Source: Candidatus Krumholzibacteriota bacterium
GTDB taxonomy: Bacteria > Krumholzibacteriota > Krumholzibacteriia > Krumholzibacteriales > WJIX01
Direction: 5' to 3'
Length of the DNA: 64,000 nucleotides
NCBI GenBank assembly: GCA_034520215.1
Contig: JAXHNR010000001.1
Location: 1,292,560-1,356,559 of the forward strand
A program made the position numbers and the translations under genes. Below, one piece after another: positions 24,928-45,821 of this stretch (its first letter is position 1; every line of letters begins with the position of its first letter). The notes beneath the pieces are model-generated. The model ran no database searches, was not told the origin of the DNA, and saw nothing but the letters and a program-made list of their open reading frames with translations.

Positions 24928-25294
24928 GGTGGTAGAGTAAAGCTGTAAGCCGAATCCTGTTCCGACCTTCCAAGAGGCCGGCTGTGATCATTTATCTCAG
25001 AATCACCGTTACCGGGGATCTCAAGCAACCTACCCAAGAGTCAAACGAAGCGGGCAACTTCTCCTCTGCTATTTGGTCTTTCTCCGGATGGGGTTTGCCA
25101 GCTGCCGCCGTCACCGGCGGCACTGGTGAGCTCTTACTTCACCTTTTCACCCTTACCTCTCAAAGAGGCGGTATATTTTCTGTGGCACTTTCCTTGGGTC
25201 ACCCCACTGGGTATTACCCAGCATCCCGCCCTGTGGAGTTCGGACTTTCCTCGAGTGATATAACACCCGCGATCACACGCTTAACTCCGCCACC
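24928..25294 (-). ncRNA. rnpB: RNase P RNA (type A)
   Basis: The minus strand shows the hallmark core elements of the RNase P catalytic RNA in order. GAGGAAAGTCCGAACTCC (P4/CR-I region) comes first. AAGGAAAGTGCCACAGAAA, GGTAAGGGTGAAAAGGTG, GTAAGAGCTCACCAG and GGCAAACCCC follow. Near the 3' end is ACAGGATTCGGCTTACAG (CR-V). The ends pair as helix P1: GGTGGCGGAGTTAAGC at 25294 downward against GCTTTACTCTACCACC ending at 24928. Known role: 5' maturation of tRNAs. It lies between rnhA and recJ, whose apparent longer frame reads into it. Exact ends are estimated from P1 pairing. Confidence 0.95.
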
Positions 25295-41351: not shown

Positions 41352-41450
41352 GGCGGGAACGTGTGGGAATCGAACCCACCCCGGATGGTTTTAGCACCCG
41401 GCAGAAGGATTTGAAGTCCTCGGGATTCACCAGAACCCATCCATTCCCGC
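41352..41450 (-). tRNA. selC: tRNA-Sec (selenocysteine, anticodon UCA)
   Basis: A 99-nt RNA on the minus strand with an 8-bp acceptor stem (GCGGGAAT/GTTCCCGC) and anticodon arm GAGGACTTCAAATCCTTC (loop CTTCAAA, anticodon TCA). It has a long variable arm (CTGCCGGG...) and a 5-bp T-arm GTGGG-TTCGATT-CCCAC. It aligns throughout with the known E. coli selC pattern. CCA is not encoded. A run of seven T (41334-41328) downstream, behind a short GGGA stem, may terminate it. Its presence implies UGA-directed selenocysteine insertion in this organism; no selA/selB/selD lie in the window. Confidence 0.93.
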
Positions 41451-45389: not shown

Positions 45390-45455
45390 TTGCTCACAAT
45401 GTGGAGTTTTCCCAATTTTTATAACCTATAAGGTAGTCGATGATTTGTAACAGTA

Positions 45456-45605
45456 TGCGGCTGATTGATATTTTCAAAATCGTGGTCGATTTCCCCGGCG
45501 AGGAAACCGCCACTCCCGCCTCGGGCTCGCTCTTTCTGCCCCTTCGGGTCAGAAATCCTTGCCCGCTCGCCCTCCGGAGGGTTTTGAAAATATCAATCAG
45601 CCGCA
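45456..45605. repeat. 150-bp nested palindromic element
   Basis: Two perfect 24-bp inverted arms (45456-45479 and 45582-45605; outer end TGCGGCTGATTG) enclose 102 bp that are clearly richer in GC than the surroundings. The interior contains CCTCCGGAGG (45571-45580) and TTTCTG...CAGAAA (45534-45556, with a GC inner stem). It also contains TTTCC...GGAAA (45490-45506). As RNA it would fold into a closed multi-hairpin. It sits in the 568-bp gap between glmM and acs. The minus strand is open through the whole element from ATG 45606, but the peptide resembles nothing. The rest of this gap holds the glmM promoter candidate and the acs terminator. The element looks like an interspersed repeat or MITE-like unit; copy number is unknown. 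Confidence 0.8.
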
Positions 45606-45821
45606 CTCATCAGCAATGAAAGCCCTATTCCACTTACCAATCCTGATAACTAATTGTATCTCGCAATGTTATTACAATACTTGCCGAATTTTCGGGGGAA
45701 CTCCAACTCACAATCTGCAGCTACCCCAATTTTACTTAGTATATTCAATATATTTTAACGCGGCATAAGGGTTGAAAAATAAAATATTTATTGTATCTAA
45801 AAATAATCACATATTTAAAAT

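Follow-up and report, generated by a model that had tools for sequence, protein, structure and literature searches.

The stretch of DNA analysed here (hereafter the window) comprises 64,000 nucleotides of a Candidatus Krumholzibacteriota contig, which also holds a class A RNase P RNA (24930-25288, minus strand) and a selenocysteine tRNA (41355-41448, minus strand). At positions 45456-45605 lies a GC-rich unit of 150 bp bounded by long inverted arms. A preliminary description made from the letters alone had taken this unit for an interspersed repeat or MITE-like element, or a structured RNA, and had likened it to palindromes that invade genes. We asked what the unit is, how far the repeat extends, what could have moved it, and whether it has counterparts in other bacteria.

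The repeat in the window

The arms are perfect as described, with 24/24 complementary positions between 45456-45479 (stem P1, 5' arm, plus strand) and 45582-45605 (3' arm, plus strand), 102 nt apart; among subfamilies the arm sequences differ with complementarity kept. The predicted folding energy of the 150 nt was -74.2 kcal/mol, whereas shuffles averaged -44.4 (z = -7.85; equalled by 0/200 shuffles), and the unit is 56.7% GC between 150-base flanks of 34.0% and 36.7%, so the structured interior and distinct base composition of the preliminary description also held. Its remark on an open minus strand stood for the window copy, where an ORF at 45394-45606 (70 aa) spans the unit, but not as a family trait. 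Among 103 related elements the open fraction was 0.29-0.37 on the complement strand (0.26 in dinucleotide shuffles) and 0.47-0.52 on the pattern strand (0.39 in shuffles). We rejected a coding role for the element, as open frames are about equally frequent in shuffled sequences.

The true repeat unit extends beyond these 150 bp. It is a MITE of ~305 bp at 45401-45706 (plus strand), running from GGAG at 45403 to CTCCA at 45705. It carries outer repeats of its own, GGAGTTTTCCC..GGGGGAACTCC, and is flanked by a target duplication of 8 bp. The left outer terminal inverted repeat GGAGTTTTCCCAATTTTTA occupies 45403-45421 (plus strand), and GAGTTYYCCCAATTTTT has 63 exact matches in the genome. The right outer repeat occupies 45687-45705 (minus strand; AATTTTCGGGGGAACTCCA on the plus strand) and was placed by the ends that copies share; at the right end, related copies share the reading GGGGAATGTCC with the IS4-like element L129. 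Comparing the flanks of complete copies placed the target-site duplication CTCACAAT at 45393-45400 and again at 45707-45714, and homologous flanks stop at the same points in other MITE copies as at the ends of the window copy.

Copies of the MITE in its own genome

Among 40 scored candidates, BLAST of the 150 bp against its own genome returned full-length copies at 91-100% identity. Exact matches to the core pattern TCGCTCTTN{12,40}CCNTGCCCGCTCG numbered 69 in this genome, and a reversed control pattern had 0. A single copy with no counterpart in relatives can be set aside because of these 69 matches and a further 8 in a sister-genus genome (G004). Across the class the core was found only in its own genome and G004 (with up to 39 candidates scored in each genome, which makes the counts there minimum values); the pattern had 0 matches in three genomes of the same genus, all of them fragmented drafts of 80-84% completeness.

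Homology between copies runs past the arms on both sides and stops at the outer inverted repeats. We delimited 45 complete MITEs in the fetched loci, a figure in which locus L101 counts twice, both of its ends being left-type. An identical duplication of 7-12 bp lies outside the ends in 36/45 complete MITEs compared with 29/2000 mismatched flanks, which confirmed the MITE-like nature suggested earlier. In 28/45 MITEs a TCAA lies in the 30 nt that precede the left end, against 15.1% of random 30-mers. The longer word GTCAA was seen within 30 nt upstream in 16/45 copies. MITE orientation was unbiased (19 to 17), and the copies are intergenic, with no ORF of at least 100 aa spanning any of the 69 in this genome.

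At least three subfamilies are present, with arms TGCGGCTGATTGATATTTTC, TCCGGCTATTGGTATTGTC and TCCAGTAGATTG, and L101 is a chimera, its left end coming from one subfamily and its core and remaining end from another. The inner unit is forward with respect to the outer ends in 32/45 copies and reversed in 12/45, and by the pattern used one of the 45 has no core; the simplest account of this flipping would be that the arms serve for inversion or exchange. The window copy is one of dozens (roughly seventy) of non-autonomous ~305-bp MITE copies with ends resembling those of an IS4-like DDE element.

The probable IS4-like partner

Locus L116 has the same outer end as the MITE followed by a transposase remnant, and intact relatives of this transposase occur in a genome of the same genus (G003, 421 aa) and in one of the same order (G010, 436 aa). 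End-linked remnants are present in the MITE's own genome, where no intact transposase was found: three matches had frames of 78-152 aa only. The partner transposase matches Pfam DDE_Tnp_1 above cut-off and the NCBIfam IS4 and IS701 models below cut-off. The MITE ends GGAGTTTCCCC / GGACATTCCCC are close to the L129 ends CAGGACATTCCCCAGTTTTTA and TAAAAAACTGGGGAATGTCC, and the IS4-like elements of G003 and G010 also have ends GGACATTCCCC, so that terminal inverted repeats are common to the MITE and the autonomous L129-type element. No clear target duplication was seen at the two intact IS copies, L129 and L127. Both of these end just upstream of a TTGACA-like box; promoter -35 boxes may perhaps be favoured as targets. 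Two further loci in the MITE's own genome (L131, L132) carry IS4-like transposase remnants near frames that by eye resemble an IS3-type integrase.

The core in other phyla

In G004 the core also occurs between other arms, and at locus L031 of that genome it lies 9 nt behind a stop codon with no outer end visible by eye in the 90-135 nt shown. A scan of the collection for the core returned at least 119 stretches. Among the matches listed in that scan, 65 of 80 loci matched R1 at E <= 1.2e-5. The other fifteen (L151, L163, L167, L175, L181, L189, L190, L191, L198, L202, L207, L213, L215, L222 and L226) had no R1 match at that threshold, looked coding or weak, and were rejected. We aligned 64 matches at E <= 1e-5 from 60 loci outside G004, representing 43 assemblies by record name (alignment A2); L166 and L206 (1.2e-5) and the G004 loci L177, L187 and L218 were left out. 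By record title the hosts include Patescibacteria groups, Omnitrophota, Deltaproteobacteria, Aminicenantes, WOR-3, one actinobacterial bin and others. The P1 arms have no evident sequence likeness between these groups, yet they are complementary. An independent set (A3), found with R2 in the phylum of genome G085, comprises 30 matches at 28 loci in 19 genomes.

Two loci carry more than a single simple copy. At L183, two elements (1183-1323 and 1353-1492) lie ~30 nt apart in opposite orientation, one of them diverged, and in the copy at L217:5781-5925 the core is separated from the 3' arm by an extra GC-rich hairpin CGCCCGTACCGAAACGGTACATTTCGGGCG, as though one hairpin were nested in another. 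Some deltaproteobacterial and Omnitrophota copies (L161, L216, L228; L155, L196, L223) appear by eye to have outer repeats of their own, and therefore the capture of the core by transposons may have happened more than once.

The core had no match in 20,395 E. coli records, and the 318-bp stretch had none in plasmids and phages. In viral contigs a lone pattern match (L105) was taken as chance because its surroundings do not resemble the element. No Rfam family reached its gathering score for the element in the window or in 19 loci, and a 331-base stretch searched at E <= 5 gave nothing above noise. We found no description of this element in open-licence PubMed Central articles, where the core word ATGCCCGCTCG had an unrelated match only.

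Structure and strand

The core is ~105 bp long and shares one fold, a three-way junction of P1, P2 and P3-P4, in several phyla. In the window, hairpin P2 spans 45481-45514 (plus strand), with a conserved loop region CCCC(A/G/T)GCG.GG and compensatory changes in its stem. Stem P3 (45523-45572, plus strand) pairs GGGC-TC-GC with GC-TC-GCCC, leaving a TC/TC internal loop that is GA/GA on the complement strand. The apical hairpin P4 (45533-45555, plus strand) is free to vary in sequence with pairing kept, and two-sided changes occur in 9/9 of its pairs. The most conserved stretch in the alignment across phyla is 45557-45569 (plus strand), CCTTGCCCGCTCG here and CCATGCCCGCTCG in most other phyla.

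Our structure model has 41 pairs and was built from 32 sequences of two genera, with two-sided changes in 23 pairs. Both larger alignments were fitted to this model, which biases them towards it, and slid or shuffled controls were made on the same alignments. Under the model 91.0% of 2382 A2 cells pair, and 864 cells carry double-sided changes compared with 252.9 when shuffled and at most 280 in slid versions. A3 pairs in 87.7% of cells with 430 double-sided changes compared with 133.4 when shuffled. Eight distorted A2 rows were dropped for the consensus fold. Compensatory changes therefore support the fold within the family, across phyla and in the independent Patescibacteria sample. A pseudoknot between the P2 loop AGCGAGG and CCTCGCT was dropped because by eye the loop variants fail to covary with their supposed partner. 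From the shared core and the site-varying but pairing arms, we conclude that the GC-rich interior of the MITE is a member of a multi-phylum palindromic family.

The pairing is almost wholly Watson-Crick. A2 has 45 G-U and 58 A-C cells of 2382 and A3 23 and 44 of 1143; in tRNAs from these loci, G-U accounts for 49 of 743 cells (the tRNA finder disallows A-C). Of the two strands, the complement of the pattern strand has the more stable fold in 78/79 elements and in 29/30 of the independent set, and in 56/56 with DNA parameters; by inspection, the reason is that the conserved internal loops, TC/TC on the pattern strand, are GA/GA on its complement. Usually this more stable strand is opposite to the mRNA of neighbouring genes. 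The folded molecule would then be one DNA strand, or an RNA opposite to the neighbouring genes; we favour the DNA strand because there is often little room for a promoter. L334, which ends at a contig end, was left out of the counts for strand stability, T runs, open frames and position in the independent set.

Signs of mobility outside the MITE

Each of the 30 genomes reached through the loci holds 1-27 copies. Presence is patchy: in the phylum of G085, 20/286 genomes were positive, G085 among them (at most 10 candidates scored per genome). At the 3' end of alaS, the element was present in G085 alone of 30 fetched loci, the match in L362 lying elsewhere in its locus. Seven sites were compared between G085 and a relative, G091, of 72-88% protein identity; six are empty in G091, a comparison not resolved to the base. 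The seventh, behind rluD, is filled in both genomes, with arms and core type different. In one genome the same core lies between different arms (L336, L341), a pattern that both core-only spread and gene conversion between cores fit. In G091, four of seven empty 3' regions contain an inverted repeat that no more than 2/60 shuffles equalled, none with the arms of the filled site; this is no more than suggestive of insertion into older hairpins. Two Vogelbacteria (L205, L221) have the element behind what is apparently the same 787-aa gene; this shared site and the doubly filled rluD site could reflect retention and count against a mobile reading. A different palindromic insert, with arms like TCCCGTTAGAA..TTCTAACGGGA, was seen behind a stop codon at L382 (G123) and L390 (G091), apparently at the ATGAA start of the next gene, with ATGAA repeated on both sides.

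Position relative to genes

Genes were called by ORF length alone for the position counts. Between co-directional genes in A2, the pattern strand is in the sense direction 29 times and opposite 4 times (one-sided binomial, 5e-6), and the upstream sense gene stops within -13 to +8 nt of the element in 20/42 cases. The independent set agrees, with 17 versus 4 in sense and upstream stops within -12 to +11 nt in 16/22. Host genes, named by eye from translations, include rnhB, rluD and alaS in G085 and alr, xerD, mraY and rpmE in G105.

Open frames of at least 190 codons enclose 6/94 elements of A2 and A3. Two in-frame copies are certain, both halves of the host protein lying in one frame: one in LepA of a Wolfebacteria bin (TIGR01393, 676.8 bits) and one in QueA of an Omnitrophota bin. 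In structure alignments the LepA query breaks at 222 and resumes at 269 as the chain passes from 260 to 265, and the QueA query passes from 280 to 332 as the chain passes from 269 to 274. A third in-frame copy, in a PMT_4TMC protein, is likely. The earlier comparison with gene-invading palindromes therefore holds for other bacteria because of the LepA and QueA copies, though not for the MITE's own genome, where an ORF of at least 100 aa spans 0/69 copies. The element thus adds peptides to housekeeping proteins, and a covariance model would be a gain for annotation.

These positions would also suit a working 3'-UTR structure of the host with a part in terminating, protecting or processing transcripts, the role suggested for REP elements, and the stop-codon placement, the orientation bias of both samples and the housekeeping hosts all speak for it. 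We nevertheless judge it unlikely, given that presence is patchy, that G-U pairs are few next to those of the tRNAs, that the mRNA-like strand is the less stable in 78/79 elements and that orientation is random in the MITE form. A run of at least four T follows within 12 nt in just 8/79 elements, and on this count we rejected an intrinsic terminator.

Integron attC sites follow stop codons, and their bottom strand folds. That the core is a folded DNA strand serving as a recombination site of this kind would fit its position, fixed orientation, more stable complement and Watson-Crick pairing, but its conserved core sequence is long, its hosts are housekeeping genes rather than cassettes, and arrays were not seen in the fetched loci, all of which makes this reading quite improbable. 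Least credible of all is a REP-like element moved by RAYT (Y1) transposases, which is already weakened: Y1_Tnp is present in 19/35 genomes searched and REPs, too, occur chiefly downstream of genes, with some copies inside genes, but G085 (20 copies), G109 (19), G084 (11) and the MITE's own genome have no Y1_Tnp match, the element is near 0/30 fetched Y1 loci, and REPs measure 20-40 bp and bear a GTAG or CGTC tag (REP properties from the excerpted text of PMC3733652).

Interpretation

We consider it probable that the locus has two layers, an IS4-like MITE and, carried within it, a selfish palindromic core family found in several phyla. On the outer layer, an IS4-like transposase would have moved the MITE, making duplications of 7-12 bp and preferring sites adjacent to TCAA/TTGA. 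The core itself may be a selfish palindromic element, one strand of which, when single-stranded, would fold for its own movement or copying. It would settle mostly just behind stop codons, where it is least harmful, and sometimes in-frame within genes. In the ancestry of the MITE's own genome, the core presumably came inside an IS4-type MITE and was carried to high copy number. No enzyme linked to the core was found outside that genome, with Y1 transposases examined.

More tentatively, one folded mobile family may have spread across phyla by a structure-directed route of its own, which we regard as possible rather than probable. One DNA strand would fold into the three-way junction with its tandem G-A motifs and enter or create hairpins behind stop codons, each copy would gain site-specific arms, and a DDE transposon would have captured the family in the window's genome. 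The stop-codon bias and the more stable strand opposite the message call for an explanation whether the core is selfish or a working part of the host transcript.

To our knowledge, small bacterial palindromic elements are usually limited to one genus or family, and little is known of how they move. The host range of this core family is unusually wide. With a single fold shared by several phyla, sites filled in one genome and empty in another, and arms peculiar to each site, such a family would make the question of movement testable.

Comparison with known systems

IS-family MITEs such as RUP with IS630-Spn1 have IS-like ends, a target duplication and no gene, according to the excerpted text of PMC2229807. 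By that description the present MITE is like them in all three features; it differs from them in its structured core, which spans phyla and is also found apart from these ends. REP/BIME share with the present element a palindromic make-up and a location for the most part downstream of genes, with occasional copies within genes (PMC3733652, in excerpt); compared with the REP properties given there (20-40 bp, tags, RAYTs) the present core is ~105 bp with no linked Y1 transposase. The 127-bp palindromic, intergenic ERIC/RU-1 resembles our element in that the complement of the printed ERIC strand also folds more stably. It has no nhmmer similarity to our alignments, and the core is without match in E. 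coli; neither the printed ERIC/RU-1 sequence nor that of YPAL/RU-2 matched the A1, A2 or A3 profiles, for which the window copy served as positive control.

YPAL/RU-2 of Yersinia is described in the excerpt of PMC2229807 as ~168 bp, not A+T-rich, with internal inverted repeats and targets lying across or next to dyad symmetry, and as found between genes, apart from some in-frame fusions. On that account it shares size class, a composition that is not A+T-rich, internal inverted repeats and both intergenic and in-frame sites with the present element. YPAL/RU-2 is known from enterobacteria, whereas the present core crosses phyla. Rickettsia palindromic elements (RPE) are given there as 105-146 bp with a long stem-loop, both intergenic and in-frame in conserved protein genes. 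The present element is likewise in-frame in conserved genes, namely LepA and QueA of other bacteria; unlike RPE, described for Rickettsia and compared here by the excerpted description rather than by sequence, its core occurs in several phyla. We therefore file the window copy as an IS4-like MITE and its core as a palindromic family unnamed in our search, since ERIC and YPAL sequences were unmatched and, by our comparison, RPE and YPAL are closest to it in behaviour.
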